Shown here: in pieces, positions 3,001-61,811 of the stretch
Layout of the letters: the number at the start of each line of letters is the position of its first letter
How positions within the stretch are numbered: position 1 is the stretch's first letter
Source: Lutjanus erythropterus
Lineage: Eukaryota; Chordata; Actinopteri; Lutjaniformes; Lutjanidae
DNA length: 64,000 bases
NCBI GenBank assembly: GCA_020091685.1
Contig: CM034603.1
Coordinates: 32,101,696-32,165,695, forward strand
Reading direction: 5' to 3'
Made by a program: the position numbers and the translations under genes
Notes under the pieces: model-generated
Seen by the model: the letters and a program-made list of their open reading frames with translations, nothing else
What the model was told of the DNA's origin: nothing
Database searches by the model: none

Positions 3001-3958
3001 AATGACAATACACAAATAGAAGACGCTGCCTGAAATAAGCAGCCAATGGCAGGCTTATATCCACAGTGCACATCTGGTGAGTCACACTACCTTTGGACAG
3101 AAGCAGCCTAGCCGTTTCCCGCTGTTTGCAGTATTTGCGCTACGCTAAGCTAACAATTTTAAGGCTCAAAACATTCAACTGACAGATATGATGACAGTGG
3201 TACCAATCTTCTCATGTAAGTCTTGGCCAGAAAGTGAATAAGTGTATTTCCCAATATGTTGAACTGAGTTTTATGCTGCCAAATGCTGATTCCCTGCAAA
3301 TATTGTACCTGGAAAAAGAGGCTGTGCTTGGAATAATGGGATTCTCAGCTGAGTGGTTAACCCAAAATCCAGTGAACATATTCCAAAAAATTAAAAAGGT
3401 AGAACGTCAAAGAGGACAAAATACTCACATTTCACTTATTTATATGGATCAAATTGACAAACACTACCCACTTAAAGTGAAACGTGAGCACCCCCCCCCC
3501 TTTTTTTTTCTGGAATATGCTCCCCACAAATGTCTTTTCCTATTATACACAAAAGCATAAAAAATATGTAGCTAGCCAAAGTATGAAATGTCTGATACAA
3601 CTCACTATAATTCTGTGAAAGATGGAAAAATATCCACACTCATTCATTTGTTGTGGAACATACTGCACGCTTAAACTCTGACAATTCTAAACAAAATCCT
3701 TAAAAATAATTAAAACAATCCACAACAGGTGTTAATTACTACGCAAACCAAGTCTCTGCCACTATTTTGCATCATTAGCAAATGGCTTGTTAACTGGAGT
3801 ACTAATGTTTGTTACTCATAGAGACATGGGACACAGAAGTGGCAACACAAGGGGAGCTGGGAGCGTATAGAGTCCAATACGGATGAGTCAGAGCGTCACG
3901 AAAAACAAACAACAACATGTGACGGTACAGTAGCTCTGCTGCACCCAGCGTCACTTAC
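1..3958. other. EPHA4 intron (downstream of last visible exon); no other gene recognised
   Basis: This stretch follows the splice donor at 3958 on the minus strand, so it should be EPHA4 intron. It holds a long foldback repeat (about 2074-3265) and a moderately GC-rich patch at about 780-1150 with pyrimidine runs. No cysteine-rich, fibronectin III or kinase exon was recognised on the minus strand. Confidence 0.6.
2074..3265. repeat. Long foldback (inverted-terminal-repeat) element inside EPHA4 intron
   Basis: The segment about 2074-2250 and the reverse complement of about 3086-3265 are imperfect copies of each other. Shared landmarks are AGCTTAGC, GGGAAAC(A/G)GCTAG and TGTCCAAAG, in the same order. 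The arms are about 170 bp and enclose about 830 bp. Long-armed repeats of this kind are typical non-autonomous DNA transposons of fish. No transposase is present. Ends are approximate. Confidence 0.65.
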
Positions 3959-6900
3959 CTTTACACGAGCCACTCTTCTCTTGATATCCCGGGTTGCAGA
4001 GACATCCACCAATAGGAACCAACCACTCTCCGTCAGCACCGCAGTACATCTTAGGCTCCTCTCTCTCCTCTGATTGGTTGACACAAGACCCCCTGACCTC
4101 CACCAAAGAAGACGTGTCGGCCCCGGTGACGGTGTCAGGAAAGGTTGCCAGGTTGCGGACGGTGAGCGGGCAGGTTTTATAGAAAACTCTGACGGAAACC
4201 AAAGCGATGCAGGCGCCGACATCCTGAAAGGCCAGGTAGAAACCCTTCCGGGTCGTGACCTTTACGTCTCGCACCTCGGTGTTCAGTTTCATGATGCGGT
4301 CGCCAACATCCACCTGGATGGAAAGACAATGGAGACAAATGAAATCTGCAGTAAAGTGTGCTGGCCCTTATTAATTCAATTTGCTTGTTCAACCTAAAGT
4401 GGGAGTTGCTATTGAACCATGGCTGATCTTCACATTTTCAGCATTTGGCTCTCATCCAGATCGACTTCTATTGATTCCAAAGGTAAAACAAGCTGCATTG
4501 CCTACAATGCTAAAACCAGAAGTAATTTTAGTAAAGACTAAGCAGAAGCACTCCTGCCAACCTTCCTGGGACAGCAGAATGGACATCCACGATAAAAGTG
4601 CTAGTAAAACAAATAAAAAATCAGAGCTAAGTGCCGCAGGGGGTTTTATTTTCAAGATAAGAGCAAATTAAAGTGAGCGGAGGAGGAAGGATAAAGAACT
4701 CAAAGGCTGAGTCAGTTGTTTAGTGTTACCTGGGTGAAGCTCTCGTCTGCTGCCACCGTGTCCACCTTAATGAAGCTGCTCTCTTTGATGTAGCTCTCTC
4801 TGTCTTCGTTTGATTCGTGGTAGTACAGATTGAATGTCTCCTACAAGACAAAAGGGGGCAGGAAAAAAAAGTCAGACTGAGGCGTCTATTTATCATCATC
4901 AGCGTTCATCTTTTCTCTTAATATGATAATGAGTCAAAGGGGGGTTTGTGCTTGAATAACCAGCAGCTGTAATACATAATAAAGCTCCATTAGCAGCAGT
5001 CTGTCCATTAACTCATTAGCATAAAAGTTAACATGTTCAAAGTCCTTGTTGTCAACTAATTTCAATTGCGTCCAACCTATACAACGACCATCATGCTCTG
5101 TCAAGACATCGTGAGTATGTTTTCTTGTACCTTGCAGGTGCCGGTGACCCCTGGCAGGCTGTTACAGTCTCTCAGGGTGAACTTGACTTCAACGTAGACC
5201 CGCTGAGCTCCAGACCGAGGGATCCAGTCTGTCCTCAACCAGTTGTTTTGATTGGGTTCCAAGACATTGCACACCTGGTACGTTCTGATGGGGATGTTCT
5301 TCTCATCCATAATGCTCACCTCTTCCCACTGCAAACAAACACACGTGCAACTTCTATTAATACACCTGAGAGAGCGTCCTCTGATTACAGGCCACCCGTA
5401 AGAGCTCTGCAGGTACTTTTCTACACCTCATGTGGGACCGTCCGCTGGGTTCCACATTTTGGACTGACGTGGTTGGAACAGTTGAGGAGTGGTTGGATCT
5501 GCTCTCGTCGAGGACGTGTTTTTGTCTTGTTGGAGACGTGCAAAGGCACAGTTTGGTTAGCTCTTGCAGGCTTCCTAAATGCCGCCAGGACTGTACTACA
5601 GAACTAAGGACTGGATCGAGCTCATGACGGCTGCAGCCTCATATGAGTTAACGCTGGCCAGAGAAAGATTCTGTGTCGAAATTTACTGAAATGTGGGGTA
5701 TGTTTGGTACAATAATGGTGCAGGATGTTTGAGAAAAAAAATAAAAGCTCAAAAAATAACAGAAAAAGACCACCACTTTAAAATATATACCATAAATACT
5801 TCCAGGCACCCCCTTGTTTCAGCTCATGCCAACAGTATGAAAATCAATTTGTAGATTTTTTGAAACATCATCAAAAAAGATGCCCCATCAAAGTGATCAT
5901 TAATCAATGAACATTGATTGTTAATTAACTAACTTTGTAACTTTGACACCCAAAATTTAATAATTAGCTCCCAAGCAGCATTGCATTTACATGATGTTGT
6001 CAGAAAATGAAATACACAATATACACAGATGCTGTGGAAAGGATAAAGTGACTGTGGAAGATTCTTGCATGAGTCTCATTTCCAGGACACCAAATACCTA
6101 CATTTTGTGTTGAGAAAATAAGAAGGTATGGGCGGTTGTAGGCCCCGCCACACACTTCTGGTTGGTCTTACATGATGATTGAGAGGGATTATTTTTGTAC
6201 GAGTCCAGGCATTGTTTTTTGGGAAAATCCTGCATAGTTCGCATTTAACTTTCGGATGTCAGAAGTTTTCAAGCGTGCTTGAAAGCACCCACAAGTAAGG
6301 GTTTCCTAACAATCGGCTAGGGCAGCTACAATGATGACATCACTTTAACAAAAATAAATGAGACTAAATGTTTACTGTTGTGATTACAGGAAGGTCAAAG
6401 TCTCTGAAAGCTGATTCTTTTTTTTACTTTACTGGTACGAACTGAAACAAATGGTGTAAACGAAAGTTCAACTCCAAACTTCACCAGACTCAGAATAGTA
6501 GACACAAACTTTAACACAGATGCACTGACCAGAAAAACATGCTGACTGTGGAGAACTTATCTTGAATCTCTATCCACCTGAGGAAAATTTTTATCCACAT
6601 AAATACAGAAGAATCCAGATGAGATGCACTTCAGATGCCGGGGGACCTGTTTCTCGTCTAATTCGGTGCTGTCATTTGAAAGCTCACAGGCTAACATTCA
6701 TTCTTGCATCAATATTCTGCAGTGGACAGTGGTTCAGATTTGTTGCGACTCCAAGGTTTTTACAGGCACATTTCCATACAAGTGAAGCAGGCTCAACCTT
6801 CACTGCACCATCCATCTCAATAGAGCCGACTATTTGCCTTGTACTGTGACCCTTCAAATGACCGCTGAGCCTCCCAACTCCAAATTGGCTTTTTATTGCC

Positions 6901-22303: not shown

Positions 22304-24794
22304 ATGGCTCCCAGAGGTATGATCAGGGTGGTGGCCGTTCTCTACTTCATACTGGCCCTGCTCAATCCAGTTCCAGCTGTCCGTAAGTTTGTTTTATCAC
22401 ATCCGACCGCTCATCAATCATATTGAAATACAGAAAATACTATATTTGGACTTTAAACTGAACTGATCAATCATTCATTTGGTATGTTTGTGTGTGTGTG
22501 GAGTAGGTGCCAACAGGGCCAGAGCCTGTTGCCCGGGCTACACTAAGAAGCCAGTACCCTTCCAGCGTATTAAGGGCTACAGAGAACAAAGCAACTTGGA
22601 AAACTGTCGCATCAAGGCGATCATGTAAGACTCTTTCCTATGAAACCATCAAAACTGACCATAATATATTAATATCACTGTCATGGCACATCGAACCTAC
22701 ACAAGAAGGTGCAAGAAGACTAAGTGATTACATGAATATAAGTATTAAAACAGACAGCTTCACTATTTACTGAATTTATCGATTTTTCAAATTACTGCAC
22801 AAATTAAATTACTGTATAACTGTCTAATTAAAATGCACTATAACCCAGTACTCAATAAAGGATATGGCTTACTGTAGTTTCGCTGCTGCATCTCGTTGGC
22901 TTGCTCTTGACATTTAGCGTAATCTTTGAAGACACTCAGTTTTCCACTGAGAGAAAATGACTTTCTTTTTCCGTCATGTTTTCAATGTGCAACAAACGGA
23001 GGCAGCAGCAAAAGCAGACAGGTTACAGCAAGGCATGGGAGTAAAGTACCAAACAGAATCAGCCAACAATTTTTTTTTCATGTGATTATAGATTTCATAG
23101 ATCAATATAAGCGGCTGATCACTCTGACCATGATCAATGTCAGCGGTTTCCACCCTATTTTTTTTTTTTAATACTCATAAGTCACTGGTGTTTGTTTTGT
23201 GGAATTGCGGCATATTGTTTGTCTAGAATTTCTTGCTGTTGGAAAAAAAAAGAAAAAATCCATTTGATCCGGTCTACCACAACATTCTGCTGTCAAAACT
23301 GTCTGAAATTCAAAACTCGCATCTGTTTGGTCTGCTCCATATTTCCATAAATTATGTTTATAAATTATTTGTACGCAAGCTGTCCAGTTTTAAAGATTGA
23401 AAAAAAGTCCAATTACACAATACAGCCTCGACTCTGCTTCTTGAGCACCGACAGAAAGTTGTGACTGAATAGTTGCTCAGAAGCCTAGTTTTGTTTGATT
23501 ATTTTTGGATCAGATATTTCACTATGTAAATTATTAATTTGTCCATCCCACCTTTATTTTAAATCGGAAATACACTGAGGTAGAGACTTCATTTATAATT
23601 CAGCTGAGTAAAAAATAAATAAAGGCTATTAGGCACAAAGAAACACCAATAAGAAACTTGTGACAGTAAAAGCCACAATAAAACCATGAGAATAAATTAA
23701 AACCTGAATGAAACAGTTAAAACAAGAACATCTGGAAGTAAAATGTGACACAGTTAAATTAAGTTAAATTTAAATTGACCTGATGATAAAAATGAGGTAA
23801 ACTTCAGATTGGATCACAAATCATCTAATTTTAAATTTTATTTTATTTAAAGCTACTACAAGCAGTTTTTAACTGGCTATGAAAAAGCCTCGATTTGTTT
23901 CTGATGCCTCTGTATGACCTACATGAGCAAACAAGGTCTTTCCAGAAGAGGATCGGCTATTTCTATGTAGTTATTCTCTGTGGCTGCCGCCGGGTCGGAG
24001 TCTCCTTGAAATCAGACGAGACCAGACCAGGCAAAGGTACAGTGAGTAGTGTGTTACAAGGAAGTGGGAGGAGATTTTCATTCAGATCATTTTATTTTTG
24101 ACGTGATATTTTGTGGTCACGGCCGTGGAAACACTACCGCTTCTGTCCACAGGGATCTCCAAAATCAACACAACATGAAAGGTCCTTGTAGTGGCTTTAA
24201 AGTTCCTGCACGGCTACACTTTTTACTGTAAGACAACATAAAACGCTGATGGCTTAGTTTGATTTTTGTAGAAAACTGTACAAATAAGTATTGTTTTATG
24301 ACTGGTAGTGGAACTAGTATGAAATAGGCACCATTATCAAAACATTATACTTAGATTATACAATTATACACTCAACAATATTAGTGTTTTCTGTGTGTGT
24401 CTGATTATGTGTCTCATTATTGCAGTTTCCTCACAGTTAAGAAGGCTGAGATATGTGCAAACCCGGACGATGCGTGGGTGAGGAAAACTCTAGATTTACT
24501 CAGGTATGAGACTCCTACTCACTCTTAAATACCAACCAGTTTCAGTTTAGACTTAAAATCAGGTCAAACTTTGTGTGTGAACAAGTTTTTTTTGTTTGCT
24601 TGTTTTGTTATTGGTGCATTGTGAGTAAAAACTCGCCTCTTCATAGTGCAAAACTGAAGAAGATGTCCAAGGCTGGCTCTGCTGCAGGTGACACTCAGAT
24701 CAGCAAAAGTGTGACTCCTTCACTTAATGGTGGAAGTGGATCTTTCTTCAGTACCGCAGAGATCTTCAGAAACAGCAGTGAAAGTTTCTATTAG
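22304..24794 (+). CDS. CC chemokine, CCL20-like, four exons
   Basis: This encodes a secreted CC chemokine, a small chemoattractant for leukocytes. Exons are 22304-22382, 22507-22624, 24426-24503 and 24647-24794, with GT-AG introns in phases 1, 2 and 2. Together they give 423 nt, 140 residues plus stop. Residues 1 to about 26 form a signal peptide. The paired cysteines are 34 and 35 (ACCPGYTKKPVPF), with the partners at 60 and 76. The stretch AIIF to KKM, with ICANP then W83, closely matches the core of CCL20 (AIIF, VCANP, W, LLSKK). Human CCL20 also has four exons and lies on the same chromosome arm as EPHA4. The Ser/Gly-rich tail of about 48 residues from exon 4 is longer than in mammalian CCL20. 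The start is the first ATG after the TATA box. Assignment to a particular fish CCL20 paralogue is uncertain. Confidence 0.85.
23849..24203. repeat. Small inverted-repeat transposon in intron 2 of the CCL20-like gene
   Basis: The ends read TTTAAAGCTACTACAAG at the left and CTTGTAGTGGCTTTAAA at the right, a clear inverted pair. Related copies lie in intron 2 of the long-tailed chemokine genes, at about 54492-54726 and 56694-56935, and share GAGATTTT(T/C)ATT and TTTTGTGG. It is a non-autonomous element with no open reading frame of note. Confidence 0.65.
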
Positions 24795-46201: not shown

Positions 46202-46732
46202 ATGACAAGCCTTGCCTTTGTCTCGCTCCTCCTCGTAGCTATCATGTCGTCCTCAGCCTCTGCCAAAGGTAAGAGCAAAATGAAGATTCTTATGCATTTG
46301 TTCATTTATGTGATTTATGTATTATTTCATGTTAGACTGTGGAAAAGACGATAATGATGATAATGGTCTCTTGTGTCTTTATTCAAAGGTGGGATAAGCA
46401 ATTGCTGTCGACATACTTCTTCCACTCAAATTCACCGAGACAGTCTGAGGAGTTACTACAGACAGGATCAGTCATCATGCCCAATAGACGCAGTGGTGTA
46501 AGTCTGTTTCACATTATATTTATGGGCATAGTTTCTGTTTCTGATGTCTTTTGATCTATTTATACTTGCATGTGTTCCTGAATATGTTCTCTCTCTGTTG
46601 TGATTTTTTAATAGATTCACCACTCTGAAGGGAAAGAGAATCTGCTCTGACCCCAACAGACTGTGGACACAGACCAGCGTGGCCTACTTGGACGGAAAGA
46701 ACTGGCAGCGCCAACACGCCATCCGTCACTGA
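46202..46732 (+). CDS. CC chemokine, three exons, 97 residues
   Basis: This is a compact secreted CC chemokine. Exons are 46202-46268, 46389-46497 and 46615-46732, with GT-AG introns in phases 1 and 2 and 294 nt in total. Residues 1 to about 21 form a signal peptide ending ASA. Cysteines are 28 and 29 (SNCCRHTS), 53 (SSCPIDAVVF) and 69 (GKRICSDP). W76 and a C-terminal YLDGKNWQR helix complete the normal chemokine fold. The pair YY and the motif CSDP are common in fish CC chemokines of the MIP/MCP-like group. The three-exon layout and length are standard. A TTTAAAAAG sequence at 46142-46150 may serve as a TATA element. The exact orthologue is not clear. Confidence 0.88.
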
Positions 46733-52880: not shown

Positions 52881-53037
52881 TTATTGCTTATTTTCATGTT
52901 TATGCCTATTTGTAGCACATAACTGTATTTACGAGGTTCATGTCTCATTCATTATTGAGTGTGAACACATTGAGCATTTCTGTCAAATCTCTCGTATGTA
53001 TAAATCAACACACAACATGCCACATATACAAACAGAC

Positions 53038-53043
53038 TTTATT
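53038..53043 (-). terminator. Polyadenylation signal shared by the left duplicated chemokine unit
   Basis: AATAAAGTCTG on the minus strand lies about 110 bp after the stop at 53153. The right unit has the same AATAAAGTCT sequence at 55997-56002, so the signal predates the duplication. Confidence 0.7.
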
Positions 53044-53152
53044 GGTAGTTGACAGGAAAAGGTCAAATATTTTTGCCCTTTTGAACGACAACATGATATG
53101 GTTAACATACATTCTCATCAATAAAAAATATATATAAATGCCTGTATTTGTT

Positions 53153-53887
53153 TCAAGGTACTTTCTTGTTGATGCAGTACATTAGGACTCTGGGAGGAGG
53201 AGTGTTTGTTGACTGTGGTGAGTTCTTACACATTTCCTCTGCCTCTTCCTCCCTCTCCTGGATTTCTTCCGCCTCTGTCTCCTTCCATTTCTGCCTTTCT
53301 TCTGTGGTGAGTTTTTTGGTGGGCGCTGCTGGTGTGGTGTTGCTTGTTGTCCCGTCTTCATTCTGTCCCTGCTCTTGCAATGCTTTCTTTTTTGTCTCCT
53401 CGTCCACCTTTCGCACGGCTTCTATGACCCAGTCACTGTCTGGGTCGGAGCAAAGTGTCTTTCCCTGCGTTGTCTTCAACCTGCAATGCATTGAAATTTC
53501 ATTCACCCCTATTGTATTGTTGTGGTGGAAATCTCACAGACAAATACTGTATCCATCTACATGAAAACCCGGGTGAACAAAACCAAAACTGCATGTCTAC
53601 ATACCACTAGAGGTGAATAAGGAAATATGTTTGTTTGGGTTTTTTTCTTCTAATTTGGGTGAACCCACCCTTTAAAAATATAATATTTATTAAGGAGTAC
53701 ATCTGGATATTTGTTCTCAGTTGAGATCTGAACTCATTCTGTACAGTGTGAAATTGCAGGATCACTTACAGTGTGGCTTTGATCGGACAGACGTCTTCAG
53801 ACTGAATGGTGTAATTCACAATTTGTTGAAGTGGGACTCTGGTGGTCGACCACTGCGAGCAACAACAGTTTCCCACCGGTCCATGGG
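53153..53887 (-). CDS. CC chemokine exon 2 and exon 3 set lacking its own first exon
   Basis: Two exons, 53770-53887 and 53153-53480, have intact splice sites and frame (118 and 328 nt). They encode a chemokine core with NCCC, C56 in DVCPIK and LCSDPDSDW, then an acidic tail of about 80 residues (KWKETEAEEIQEREEE, then PPPRVLMYC). No signal-peptide exon lies between 53887 and the end of the preceding exon 3 at 53971. The first exon at 55333-55399 has the right phase and would give a 170-residue protein if spliced here. The acceptor is preceded by a strong pyrimidine tract. The three adjacent cysteines are unusual; the matching position in the right unit is Arg. Exon 2 resembles that of the right unit, while exon 3 resembles the neighbouring exon at 53971. 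It is either an alternative exon set or a partial, silent duplicate. Confidence 0.65.
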
Positions 53888-53970
53888 CTAAACAAGACAG
53901 ACATAGAGAAAGAAAGATTATTATATTTAATTCTCATCAGTAGAATAATATATAAATGCCTGTATTTGTT

Positions 53971-55399
53971 TCAAGGTTCTTTCTTGTTGATGCAGTACAT
54001 TAGGACTCTGGGAGGAGGAGTGTTTGTTGACTGTGGTGAGTCCTTACACATTTCCTCTGCCTCTTCCTCCCTCTCCTGGATTTCTTCTGCCTCTGTCTCC
54101 TTCCATTTCTGCCTTTCTTCTGTGGTGAGTTTTGTGGTGGGCGCTGCAGGTGTGGTGTTGCTTGTTGACCCGTCTTCATTCTGTCCCTGCTCTTGCAATA
54201 CTTTCTTTTTTTTCTCCTCATGCACCTTTCGCATGGCTTCTTTGACCCAAGCATGGTGTGGCCTGGAGCAAATAACACTTCCCTCCACTGTGAGAAACCT
54301 GCAATGCATTGTGAATGGTTAATGGCATTGTACTGCTGTTTTAACATTGTTTTCAATTAAGTCTGAGAAATCACGTCTTAAAGGGGTAAGTTCATTCATG
54401 TTAAAACAAATCAGTTTTCTCACTGACCTTTAAGGGAATGTTGCCATGCAGATAGTTTGGCTACAATTTGGCTACACTGAAAATTGGTATTTAAAGCCTC
54501 AGTTTGTGTAATTTTGTTACTTTGGCGTTTAAACACGGGTCAGAAATCAGATTAAACAAGCCTGTGTTTACATTTTCTCAATGTTAGCCAGTTAAAAAGA
54601 AGCAGGAGGAGATTTTTATTTAGATAATTGTATTTTTAATGTCATATTTTGTGGAAACACTACCACTCTTGTCCACATGGACCTTCAAAATCAAAATATG
54701 AATGCTTCTTGTAGTAGCTTTAAAAAAAGCTTTAAAAACAATCAATAGCAGCGTCTCTTTTGCAGAAAGGGTCCTTATTACTTTGAATAATCCACAGTTC
54801 TCACTGTGAAATGTTTTCTAAGGTACTTTTTTCCAGTAAAAAGTACTTCCAATCAAAACGGCTGACAGTCAGGTTTTTGGATTGATTGATGGAGGAACTT
54901 TCTGAAATGTTGCTGTTGCGTGTTGTAATATACGCTCTGAACAGCAAAGATGAAATTTCATTCACCCCCATTGTATTGTTGTGGTGGAAATCTCACAGAC
55001 AAATACTGTATGTAAATATAATATTTATTCAGGAGTATATGTAGATATTTGTTCTCAATTGAGATCTGTTTGAATTCTGTACAGTGTGAAATCGGAGGAC
55101 CACTTACAGTACGGCTGTGATTGGACAGCCTCTTTTAGTCTGAATGAAGTAATTCACAATTTGATCAGATGGGATTGTCTCGGTCGACCACTTCAAGCAA
55201 CAATAGGATCTACGCGGTCCAGGGACTAAATAAGACAGACAGGGAAAGAAAGATGAAGTATCCTTCATTTTACCCTGCCAAACATTTAGACCATACAGTC
55301 AACTGAAAATCAGATATTTTTACTGTACTCACTTGCGTGGACAACGCTCATCCATCTGGCGAAACAGAGAATGGCGGCTAACAGCGGGCTGGACCTCAT
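53971..55399 (-). CDS. CC chemokine with long acidic tail, three exons, 170 residues
   Basis: This is a secreted CC chemokine of MCP-like core with an extended tail. Exons are 55333-55399, 55108-55225 and 53971-54298 (67, 118 and 328 nt), with GT-AG introns in phases 1 and 2. Residues 1 to about 22 form the signal peptide. Cysteines are 31, 32 (SYCCLKW), 56 (RGCPI) and 72 (VICSRP), with W79 in the final helix. From about residue 90 the protein becomes a charged, Glu/Lys-rich tail with predicted helix (TEERQKWKETEAEEIQER) and ends in a Pro-rich segment with one more Cys. The 3' UTR is cut short: the conserved AATAAAGTCT of the sister units is absent, and only ATTAAA at 53926-53931 remains before the next exon 2. 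The transcript may therefore run on to 53038. Confidence 0.85.
54492..54726. repeat. Inverted-repeat transposon copy in chemokine intron 2 (left unit)
   Basis: The copy runs from TTTAAAGCCTCAG to CTTGTAGTAGCTTTAAA. It matches the copies at 23849-24203 and 56694-56935 in its right part (GAGATTTTTATT, TTTTGTGG, TTGTCCACA). The copy at the same place in the right unit shows that insertion came before the tandem duplication. Confidence 0.6.
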
Positions 55400-55996
55400 C
55401 TTCAAAATAACCCCTTCGTCTTTGTCGTTTGACGTCTGACTGTAATGTCCCTCTGCACAAACTTACAGGATGCGCCTCGCTCACAGATTATAACTTGCTA
55501 ATTGCTGGAGTCATTATCAGCGCTGATACAGGCCAGTCTTGCTGACACAGCAGGCAGGATGTGTATCTTCATGGTTTTTACAAACCCCTTTGCCTCTTCC
55601 CCGTTCACACTTCTGGCCCGTCACCATGGAGAGTAGTCACTGTGGTCACACACAGATACTCAAAACTCTTCTTCACACGCTCTCTGAAAGCCACACATTG
55701 CCACTGCTTTTACACTGAGTGATAGCATGAGACATTTGGTGGCTGACAGGAAATTTGGATTTTAGTAAATGTTAGATTAGGTCATAGATCAGGGTTTATA
55801 TTCATGTTTATGCCTATTTGTGGCACATAACAGCTGTGTTTAGGATGTTCACGCCTAGATTGTTATCTTTGTTTAGCTGTATGTCTATGTTGGTTTCCTG
55901 TGCAGTGTAAACAAATAATATACCAGTTCTGATTCAATTCTATGTTCCATTTGTTCATAACAAAAACACACAATTTGATGATTTGATCAGAAAGAC

Positions 55997-56227: not shown

Positions 56228-57874
56228 TCAGACACGTTTTCTCTGACCCTTCCTCCCTCTCCTGAACTTCCTCCCCTTCCGTCTCCTTCCACTTCTGCCT
56301 TTCCTCCGTGGTGCCTTTTTTGACGCGGTGGACGCTGCTGGTGTGACGTCACTTGTTGACCCGTCTTCATTCTGTCCCTGCTCCTGCAGGGCTTTTTTTT
56401 TTGTCTCCTCGTCCACCTTTCTCATGGCTTTTACGGCCCAGGCGCTGTTTGGGTCGGAGCAGAGTGTCTTTCCCTTCACTGTCATAAACCTGCAATGGAT
56501 TGTGATTTGTTAATGGCATCATAATGCTGTTTGTAATATTTGTTATTAATTAAATATTTTCTTAAAGTGGCAGGTCATCCATGTTAGAACAAAAACTTTT
56601 TTTTTTTACAAAAACAGTTTATTTACCTTCAGTGGAATCTAGCCATGCTGACAGTTTGATTACATGAATTATCAACACACTAACATTTGGTATTTAAAGT
56701 TACTACAAGGAGTCACTGGGTCAGATTCTTCTTGAAATCCTATCAAACAAGCGTGTTTACATCTTCCAAGTCAAAGTTATAGTGAATAGCAAGTTAGCCA
56801 GTTAAAAGGAAGCAGGGGGAGATTTTTATTCAGATCATTTTACTTTTCCCGTTACATTTTGTGGTTATGGCGGTGACAACACTGCAGCTTTTGTCCACAG
56901 GGGTCTCCAATCAACAACACTTGTAGCGTTAAAAAAATTCAACAGCAGCAATCACTGTTGCCGAAAAGGACCCTGTCGCTCTGAATAATCCACAGTTCTC
57001 ACTGTGAACTGCTCTTTTTTTCCAGTGGGAAGTTGTTTCACTTAAAACTGTCGACAGTTTTTTGATTCTCCAGAATTATTGGGACACTTTCTGAAAAGAG
57101 ATGCTGCTGAAATTTCAGCCACCCCTAATAAAACCAAAACTGCATGGCTACATACCACTCAAGGTAAATGAGGAAATATGTTTTTTTGTTTTGTTTTTTT
57201 TCTTCTAATTTGGGTGAACCCACCCTTTCAAATTACAGTATTTGTTCAGGAGTAAACGTTGATATTTGTTCTCAATTGAGATCTGTTTGAATTCTGTACG
57301 GTGTGAAAATCGCAGGACCACTTACATTGTGGCTTTGATTGGACAGACTCCTTCAGACTGAATGGTGTAATTCATAATTCGCTGAAGTGGGACTCTGGTG
57401 GTCGACCACTGCAAGCAACAACGGTTTCCCACGGGTCCATGGGCTAAACAAGACAGAAATAGAGAAAAAAAGGTTAAGTACCCTTCATTTTACCCCACCA
57501 AACATTCAGACCGTACAGTCAATCAATAATCTGCAGAAGTATCTTGCATTCACTCTAGAAAAAAGTTTTTCTAAATTACCAATATCATTTTTTATCTCCA
57601 AAAAAAAAAAAAAGAAAAAGAATCAACTCTGCTTTTATGAATTAATGAGATACCTCCAGCAGGACAGAGAGTCCTGGGCATGGGGGAGCCTGCTGGAAGT
57701 ATCTCATTAATTCAGAAAAAAAAATACTTTTTTTAGAACATTAATTCAGAAAAAGTGAATGCAATATGCTTTTGTAAAAATCTGGTATTTTTTTTAAAAG
57801 CACTCACTTGCATGGACAATGCTCATCCATGTGGTGAAGCAGAGAAGAGCAGCTAACACCAGGTCGGACCTCAT
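56228..57874 (-). CDS. CC chemokine with Arg/Lys-rich tail, three exons, 148 residues
   Basis: This is a secreted CC chemokine, sister of the gene at 53971-55399. Exons are 57808-57874, 57326-57443 and 56228-56489 (67, 118 and 262 nt; 447 in total), with GT-AG introns in phases 1 and 2. Residues 1 to about 22 form the signal peptide. Cysteines are 31, 32 (NRCCLQW), 56 (GVCPIK) and 72 (TLCSDP), with W79 following. Asn47 (NYT) is a possible glycosylation site. Up to about residue 119 it follows its sisters (EETKKKALQEQGQNEDGST). A 5-bp insertion at 56322-56326 then shifts the frame. The acidic tail is replaced by a short, strongly basic one (KKAPRRKGRSGRRRKGRKF and so on) that stops early. The sister reading frame persists downstream in another frame, so the change looks recent. 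Confidence 0.85.
56694..56935. repeat. Inverted-repeat transposon copy in chemokine intron 2 (right unit)
   Basis: The copy runs from TTTAAAGTTACTACAAGGAG to ACTTGTAGCGTTAAA, the same end motifs as the copy at 23849-24203. It sits at the position matching the copy in the left duplicated unit. Confidence 0.65.
57639..57715. repeat. Near-perfect hairpin palindrome in intron 1 of the right chemokine
   Basis: The left arm TGAATTAATGAGATACCTCC plus AGCAGG pairs with the right arm CCTGCTGGAAGTATCTCATTAATTCA, about 26 bp per arm with one mismatch. A loop of some 25 bp separates the arms. Outer sequences (GCATTCACTCTAGAAAA and CAGAAAAAGTGAATGC) also pair, so the full foldback spans about 57547-57770. 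The left unit has no counterpart, so it arrived after the duplication. Confidence 0.75.
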
Positions 57875-59687: not shown

Positions 59688-61811
59688 AGCCTTTGATGAA
59701 ATTTGTTCAGGAATTTTCCAATTTTAGGTATCATACGAAGGTTTTGGGGGCCTGCACCAATTCTGAACAGACATACTGTCTTTCTTCTGGACAGATGCAG
59801 CTGTCTTCTCCTCTCAGATAAACAAGGGAACAATTTGACAGTGTTGCTAAGGTGGTTAAGGTCGCAGCTGTGTTCGTCTTTGTCTTCATCATGTCACTGA
59901 CCCTGTGAGGAACGGGAGAAGCTTAGCTGCGGTCTCAGACCTTGTGCATTCATACTTCCCGTATTTGGATTTGCAGACTAATTCTATATGCTGTAGATAT
60001 GTTGGGTCTGACTTCATTTGGGTATAGGTTCATAATGACGTAATCTGTGAATGTTTAAAAACTATCCTGGAGAACCAAAACTCCAGGGTTGAAGGGAACA
60101 TCAGGACAAAGCATGTGCTGATTACTTCCTTAGCCAAGTATTATTAAACCAGTTTCAGCGTTAGACATATTAGACTCCTGTGTAAAATCTATGACAAGGT
60201 AGTTTTTGAATGGAAAAAAGCCGGTTTTATTTATCACCCTGCTCGAATCACCAAGAATCAAATTGGGTCAAAAATATATGGAGCAGGAGGGATAAAAACA
60301 GTACTGAAAAGTGCATTTATAAAGTAGTTTAAGGGCACATAGAGGAAAGAGGGGGCATCAATGGTGTATTTAGAAGGAGGCATCAGACAATCCTCAAGTT
60401 TCAACACGGCATTTAACCAACCGTAAAGTCGGAGCAACCGACAATGTGATGGACTCAATTTAAAGCTTAAAATGAAAGAGAGGATGGATTAAGTGAGAGA
60501 CTGAAAGGGAGAGAAAGGGATATAGAAGAAGGTGAGGGGATGGAGAGGCATAGAGATGCCCAGCAACACAAAGAAGAAAGTGTTAAAGACAGACAACAGG
60601 TGTGAATCAGACAAAAACAGAGAAAATGAAATGGTAGAGAAAACTACAGCATGTATCTGGGCCCTGTGGTACATCTCAGACAGCACATCATTATCCCAGC
60701 ACAACAATGACAGCAAAAATAACCCTCTGATTGGCCGTCCACCTGCTGTCAGGATGGAAAGCAAATGTTAGCTTCCTGCCCTCGACTCCCTCAGTCAACA
60801 ACAGCAAATCCCAAGGCACACAAACGCCCATCGTCCCAAGTGTGCAGTCATTAAAAATCAGTGGAAACCCGTCTGGCGTATGCCATCACCAAGCACAAAA
60901 TGCATACAAACACACACTCCTGAGATTGCTACATGCACAAACAAACCCACAACAGTCCACAAGCAAGCCCACACACAGTGACCTGCCTGCGCTGATGCAC
61001 TTGGCACTCATATATACACATATACACGTTCCTCCACACCCAATATCCCAGTCTCATCATTATCATCCCTGTGGCAACCTGTTTGTGAGAGGAGAAATGC
61101 CTCGCCGTATTATTCGTTCCTCTCGTATTCATTAGTTGTTGTCCTGGGCAGCAGCCTGAGCTGCTGGTTGGCCGACAGCGTAGCTGATAGGAATTAGTCT
61201 CCTGATAAAGCAAGAGAGTGGAACGTAGCGTCGCAGGAAATTACAATCAATACTGACTCTCATATCCTCATCCGATATCGACCACAAATGGGAACGAGAA
61301 GCACACTGCCGAGCCACATGGACACAAGGGCATGCTTAAAAACATATTTACATACGTGTTAGACGTGTTAGACACATGTTAGTGCACACATAGACACAAA
61401 CAAACACATTTTAAGGCAGCATTAAACATGGTTATTGTTTGACAGAGGCCCACCTTATCGCCGCGCACAGAGCACACGTGAGAAAACGGATAATGAAACC
61501 AAACTCCTCTGACTCAAGCCACAACTTTCTCATCATACTGTATTCCCACACAACCCACTCATGCATGTTTCACACACCCTCGCATAGCGGCAGCCTCAGG
61601 CTAGGAGGGGCAGAGACAAAAAACAATGTACCAGCTGTATGGTGAAACACTTTCAGTCCCTAGTTTAGAAACTGTTTTATTATGTCACTTAAAGTACAGT
61701 GAGTCTGACATCTCTGTGATAAAAACACACAGGGAACTATTTACTATTTAACCATTTAGAGACTCATGGAGACCAACTCATTTTCTAGCTGCACTGCACT
61801 GTATTTTCTCT

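Follow-up and report, generated by a model that had tools for sequence, protein, structure and literature searches.

The locus described here raises the question of whether one signal-peptide exon can serve more than one chemokine. It lies in the window, the whole stretch of 64,000 nucleotides of Lutjanus erythropterus DNA that was analyzed (contig CM034603.1 of assembly GCA_020091685.1, positions 32,101,696 to 32,165,695). A preliminary description had placed a single leader exon in front of two successive exon 2/exon 3 sets there, and all five exons were found exactly at the positions it had assigned, with the same lengths, splice sites, phases, and translations (Table 1). In the order 1, 2a, 3a, 2b, 3b, the exons measured 67, 118, 328, 118, and 328 nt. 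Their acceptors are AG and their donors GT, and the first intron interrupts the frame in phase 1 and the second in phase 2. Upon translation, exon 1 could be joined in frame to set a (exons 2a and 3a) or to set b (exons 2b and 3b), as had been claimed, and each combination yielded 170 amino acids followed by a stop codon. The distance between 3a and 2b, previously given as about 83 bp, was measured at 83 nt from the stop codon of 3a to exon 2b.

Table 1. Positions of the features of the chemokine locus within the window
Feature	Position	Strand	Remarks
Exon 1	55333..55399	-	signal peptide MRSSPLLAAILCFARWMSVVHA including the start codon; phase-1 donor GTGAGT
Exon 2a	55108..55225	-	CC motif and first part of the chemokine core
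Exon 3a	53971..54298	-	remaining core, long acidic tail, stop
Exon 2b	53770..53887	-	homologue of exon 2a
Exon 3b	53153..53480	-	core similar to gene c, tail near-identical to 3a
Gene c exon 1	57808..57874	-	MRSDLVLAALLCFTTWMSIVHA; intact paralogue
Gene c exon 2	57326..57443	-
Gene c exon 3	56228..56489	-	148-aa protein; tail basic, as is common in the family
Upstream block	55400..55491	-	5'UTR/promoter-proximal; putative promoter role
Fusion stretch	53888..53970	-	83 nt: about 41 nt of the set a 3'UTR and the last 33-42 nt or so of the former intron 1 of set b
ATTAAA	53926..53931	-	sole polyA-like hexamer from the 3a stop to exon 2b; putative function
AATAAA	53686..53691	-	within intron 2b; putative third 3' end
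AATAAA	53038..53043	-	3' of the set b stop

Both predicted proteins scored above the curated cut-off of the PF00048 profile (21.3), with 54.2 bits for a and 46.9 bits for b. The cysteines of a follow the pattern CC-C-C, and b shows the same pattern with one additional cysteine directly before the CC. The layout of CC chemokine genes, with three coding exons, introns in phase 1 and phase 2, and the leader in exon 1, is present in set a, and in set b only if the leader of a is borrowed. By sequence, the closest relatives of protein a with a solved structure were chemokines (an XCL1 ancestor, eotaxin-2, and CCL19). Among database proteins, none was closely related, and the best identities were 65% for b, 45% for a, and 69% for the product of gene c, an intact paralogue directly upstream of a on the same strand (15, 1, and 105 matches for b, a, and c at E limits of 10, 10, and 1e-6, respectively). 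The similarity to the eotaxin-like/regakine-1-like clade of percomorph fish extends over the core and the linker. The two sets are homologous to each other, stand in tandem, and agree in their phases, as in clusters of mutually exclusive exons. They are not a chance pattern, because both exon 2s and both exon 3s are homologous to those of gene c.

The number of leaders does not match the number of sets. The interval 55306-55491, which runs from the upstream block through exon 1 into the beginning of intron 1, is 77% identical to the equivalent of gene c, and no third copy of this leader block was found in the window at an E value below 1. The leader block hence occurs twice in the window and exons 2 and 3 of this kind occur three times, so that the locus consists of three cassettes with two leaders. 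The fusion stretch holds the trace of what is missing. The 3'UTRs of 3a and 3b are homologous for about 41 nt past the stop codon, up to the start of the intron-1 remnant of set b, and 29 of 32 bases in this remnant are identical to intron 1 of gene c, compared with 21 of 32 to that of a. Set b is thus a third tandem copy that has no promoter, no leader, and only the end of its intron 1. The locus has the anatomy of two tandem CC chemokine genes, of the eotaxin-like/regakine-1-like clade of spiny-rayed fish, that have become fused. The absence of the polyA end of a, together with that of the promoter, the leader, and most of intron 1 of b, points to a fusion of the two genes, brought about by a deletion or an unequal crossover. 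Such an event would have taken the 3' end of a along with the promoter, the leader exon, and the bulk of the first intron of b, and would have left both sets behind the leader of a.

Two patches of 96-98% identity are shared between a and b, namely 53130-53429 with 53948-54247 and 53492-53552 with 54951-55011. These patches bear on whether the arrangement is a product of the assembly, in which a tandem array was collapsed and the leader region of b was lost. Patches of this kind could mislead an assembler, but the join lies between non-homologous sequences (3'UTR and intron 1) and outside any long identical patch, and such an artefact was regarded as very improbable. The second patch, of 61 nt, lies in intron 2 of both genes, where it is 98% identical within sequence that is otherwise about 85% similar, and intron 2 of b lacks the approximately 640 nt that come after it in the intron of a. 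It is best read as a product of recent gene conversion between a and b. A recent simple tandem duplication of set a was also considered and rejected. The cores differ at 57 of 204 nt, and the core and intron-1 end of b resemble gene c, while its tail and 61-nt patch resemble a. Patchy gene conversion appears to fit this mosaic better than a simple duplication. The tails of 3b and 3a differ at only 4 of 177 nt and, like the 61-nt patch, are much closer to each other than are the cores or the start of intron 2 (13 of 85).

The shared tails of a and b differ in character from the tail of gene c. At 53153-53320 and 53971-54140 (minus strand), the tails of b and a use a reading frame other than the one found in the family. 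Their alignment to gene c contains a 5-nt gap, and another frame still encodes a K/R-rich basic sequence. The net charge from residue 93 onward is -6 in a and -3 in b, compared with +17 in c, and both acidic tails contain two extra cysteines. The basic C-terminal tail, a frequent and non-defining feature of the clade, is therefore kept by c and absent from a and b. A protein of Sparus aurata (P0032, LOC115573086) ends in ...LLLYCINSKHM, which resembles the end ...LMYCINKKEP of a and b, and may possibly represent the same alternative-frame tail in another fish.

Exon 2a has changed quickly. Between exon 2a and either exon 2b or exon 2 of gene c, dN was 0.42-0.44 and dS about 0.10 (Fisher p of 0.030 for a-b and 0.012 for a-c, each for a single test). 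Exon 2 of a and c differed at 33 of 120 positions, compared with 21 of 170 in the flanking introns (p of 0.0013, single test). Since dN exceeds dS in exon 2 and the rate of exon 2 is above that of the flanking introns, accelerated amino-acid change in exon 2a is suggested by these comparisons. When the exon-3 core was added to exon 2, p was 0.009 for a-b and 0.19 for a-c (single tests), the latter failing to reject neutrality. Among changes private to a at codons where b and c agree, about 30 were nonsynonymous and 4 synonymous, a ratio that by itself does not reject neutrality (binomial p of 0.10). In a family tree of 40 rows, b and c grouped together (98/93), and a stood apart on the longest branch (1.48; next 1.26, median 0.32). 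This separation counts against a fused pair of a and b, though owing to the long branch the placement of a in the tree is unsure.

Set b, in comparison, has remained close to gene c. Of the 120 nt in codons 23-62 of exon 2b, 10 differ from gene c and 32 from set a. The comparison of set b with c gave a dN of.119 and a dS of.160, showing no departure from neutrality (Fisher p of 0.79), and purifying selection on set b was not detected in it. These values are compatible with neutrality and appear neither to support nor to oppose constraint. The open frames and good splice sites of both sets had been taken to argue against simple decay. The splice sites, the frame, and the four cysteines of b are all intact. 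However, a neutral b would be free of stops with a probability of 0.64, 0.34, and 0.20 at 2, 5, and 7.5% divergence, counting substitutions only, so that the open frames are a weak argument against decay.

Set b may accordingly be a stranded relic, a reading that was considered a serious contender if somewhat less than an even chance. The mRNA 1-2a-3a would then end at one of three hexamers (the ATTAAA, the AATAAA of intron 2b, or the one that follows 3b), and set b would be 3'UTR or decaying DNA. Its frames would be open because the leader was lost recently and because gene conversion made its tail near-identical to 3a; the low divergence of the tails relative to the cores and to the start of intron 2 is in keeping with this, as are the stop-free probabilities and the neutral comparison of b with c. 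The donors of 2a and 2b are identical and score 3.0, compared with 5.2 for the exon 2 donor of c. The pyrimidine fraction is 0.81 at the acceptor of 2a, 0.75 at that of 2b, and 0.50 at that of 3b, the poorest of the four. The identity of the two donors and the similar pyrimidine content at the acceptors of 2a and 2b were counted for a working cassette, and the donor scores and the acceptor of 3b against it. Additionally, a zebrafish survey notes exons of chemokine type that lie close to intact genes or inside them, with the remark that most 'may be pseudogenes' (part of PMC2416438). As in the present locus, these are extra chemokine exons beside or inside an intact gene of a tandem cluster. 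Unlike here, where a complete in-frame two-exon set stands 83 nt downstream, the exons are 'not shown' in that part of the survey. The intact splice sites, frame, and cysteines of b speak against the relic, as do database models of relatives that splice across adjacent cassettes.

A consensus scan for leaders (an ATG with 46-118 nt of open frame and a donor GT[AG]NG in phase 1), which recovered the leaders of a and c in two control stretches, found no second leader for set b in the 83-nt gap, 3a, intron 2a, or intron 1. The earlier view that no second leader stands between 3a and 2b was thus upheld. Between the leaders of c and a, the scan returned one candidate, which is non-hydrophobic (maximum KD of 0.97, compared with 2.5-2.8 in the two real leaders). 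Upstream of c it returned 13 candidates, five of which lie in CV-coding simple repeats and six of which have a maximum KD of 0.06-1.35. The remaining two overlap at 61011 and are moderately hydrophobic (maximum KD of 2.0-2.3). Set b might be served by an unrecognised first exon, for which these two candidates leave some room, or by the leader of gene c (57874-57808, phase 1) through read-through. The leader of c matches in phase and in its donor GTGAGT, and two-gene models with an inner second leader occur in Parambassis ranga, Odontesthes, and Leuresthes. However, gene c has its own complete set with an AATAAA behind it, the leader of a is closer to b, and no leader was detected between 3a and 2b or in intron 2a. 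Service by another leader was hence judged improbable.

The possible products of the leader of a were derived by path enumeration, proceeding forward from exon 1 through three donors and four acceptors to two assumed polyA ends (after 3a and after 3b). Five of the 24 paths gave 170 residues, and these encoded three distinct proteins: a, b, and a hybrid of 2a with 3b. The five paths are 1-2a-3a with either polyA end, 1-2a-3a with a downstream junction of 2b to 3b, 1-2a-3b, and 1-2b-3b. The version of 1-2a-3a in which 3a and 2b are retained as a single 529-nt exon and 2b is spliced to 3b is a predicted target of NMD, a point counted against a working cassette. The original claim of two chemokines from one leader therefore stood as far as both in-frame sets are concerned and fell short in number, as the hybrid is a third full-length product. 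The idea of mutually exclusive sets likewise held in part. The path 1-2a-2b-3b encodes 91 residues, so that joint inclusion of 2a and 2b is unproductive, yet a plain pair of internal exons is too simple a picture and a choice of 3' ends is likely involved.

The hexamers ATTAAA and AATAAA were scanned over 52980-55440. Besides those in Table 1, an AATAAA was found in intron 2 of a, at 55029-55024. As 3a is followed by only a variant hexamer before exon 2b, the choice of set would probably be coupled to 3'-end formation. The T/GT-rich tract behind the ATTAAA doubles as the polypyrimidine tract for the acceptor of exon 2b, and cleavage and splicing would therefore be expected to compete. The AATAAA in intron 2b is another candidate 3' end for gene a and favours neither a working set b nor a relic.

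The reading preferred here, with a probability of about one half, is that the fused gene is processed as a gene with alternative terminal exons, in which set b, the hybrid, or both may be spliced from the leader of a. The product 1-2a-3a would be fixed when the transcript is polyadenylated at the weak ATTAAA behind 3a or at the AATAAA of intron 2b. Read-through to the AATAAA after 3b would open the acceptor of 2b or that of 3b, leading to 1-2b-3b, to the hybrid 1-2a-3b, or to both, with cleavage and splicing competing at the tract downstream of the ATTAAA. One promoter would then control a fast-evolving ligand a and a more conserved ligand b that resembles c. A working multi-ligand gene was weighted somewhat above a stranded cassette. 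The fullest form of the proposal is more tentative: a, b, and the hybrid 2a-3b might all be secreted chemokines that arise from one promoter and one leader through a weak proximal polyA site opposed to downstream acceptors. The exchange of a two-exon cassette would replace the receptor-binding domain; diversifying selection would act on one cassette, the other would retain the ancestral state, and both would carry a new acidic tail derived from a frameshift.

Mixed cassettes were also found among relatives. Same-species comparisons covered 35 pairs from 39 of the 105 proteins, the others having no second protein of their species among the matches; exon boundaries were inferred from the alignment to c, and the entries are database models. 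In two of the 35 pairs, exons 1 and 2 were identical and the exon-3 core differed at at least 6 of 28 positions: Plectropomus leopardus X2/X3 (22/22 and 41/41 identical in exons 1 and 2, 19/28 in the exon-3 core) and Lates japonicus P0007/P0008 (22/22, 39/39, and 22/28). One further pair, P. leopardus X3/X4, had an identical exon 3 (86/86) and different exons 1 and 2 (14/22 and 29/39). None of the 35 pairs demonstrated a single gene in which two different exon 2s share a leader, and this was counted against the preferred reading. Two pairs resemble such a case, Sebastes umbrosus P0019/P0028 and Siniperca chuatsi P0022/P0025, with identical leaders (22/22 in each) and exon 2 matches of 23/41 and 36/39, respectively; they were not counted, as they may be separate genes. 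Cassette mixing thus has a precedent at the level of annotation, and one leader with two exon 2s is without precedent among these 35 pairs. The eotaxin-like/lymphotactin-like models of percomorphs, including those of P. leopardus and L. japonicus as well as Epinephelus moara LOC126408893 X3/X5, belong to the same clade and, as proposed here, join neighbouring cassettes to a common exon 1-2 or exon 3. They differ in that the alternative part is exon 3 or exons 1 and 2, and their status as single genes is suggested by isoform labels and identical stretches. Exon-3 modules are chained within one protein in P0021, P0023, and P0037 of Epinephelus and in P0016, P0019, P0020, and P0024 of Sebastes. 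The isoforms of E. moara vary in their exon-3 modules, and tandem duplication of exon 3 recurs in the clade. Additionally, the database models P0001, P0017, and P0018 each fuse two domains and contain a leader between them.

Several known systems share parts of this design. In the calcitonin/CGRP gene, polyadenylation of a proximal terminal exon stands in competition with splicing to more distal exons, and its alternative exons, unlike those here, are not known to be a pair of homologous two-exon sets. Genes of this type have two polyA sites, one of them within the proximal terminal exon. The present locus is a candidate for such competition, and its putative polyA hexamers are the ATTAAA after 3a, the AATAAA in intron 2b, and the AATAAA after 3b. 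In the human CCL15-CCL14 fusion, adjacent chemokine genes are joined in one read-through transcript, a likeness that here concerns the sequence layout. Both human genes keep their own leaders, whereas the second leader is gone here. The isoforms of CXCL12 combine one leader and core with alternative C-terminal exons. Their receptor-binding core is constant, whereas nearly the whole mature protein would change here. Excerpts of published work touch on each of these systems: terminal exon selection in CT/CGRP (PMC4227790), CCL14/CCL15 as one of a number of validated fusions, called a chemokine receptor in that excerpt (PMC6764479), and the CXCL12 and Ccl27 variants named in a review of chemokine splicing (PMC10189238). 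The strings 'splic' and 'exon' are absent from the text of PMC3568907. Two exon-2/3 sets behind one chemokine leader were not found among the matches listed in a search of the open literature, which covered titles and the starts of abstracts and left subscription journals mostly outside.

Expression of b or the hybrid would mean that a stimulus could alter which ligand is made, beyond its amount, by changing how 3' ends are formed in activated leukocytes, and that one regulated gene had emerged from a tandem array of chemokines. A leaderless copy would then persist as an alternative cassette, offering fused tandem duplicates a route of escape from pseudogenisation. The mixed cassettes in relatives suggest that this process is recurrent in the clade.

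The remainder of the window contains further chemokine exons on the plus strand, at 22509-22625, 24427-24510, 46376-46498, and 46607-46714 (PF00048; the last slightly under the cut-off). These exons probably represent two further chemokine genes, and the window is a chemokine cluster. The second introns of a (54591-54724) and c (56801-56916) share a repeat that is 75% and 82% identical, respectively, to 24053-24201, a segment located between two exons of another chemokine gene. The repeat common to these three places is perhaps a dispersed one. At 3954-4367 on the minus strand, an open frame encodes the end of an ephrin-receptor ligand-binding domain and an ephrin cysteine-rich domain (PF01404 and PF25599).
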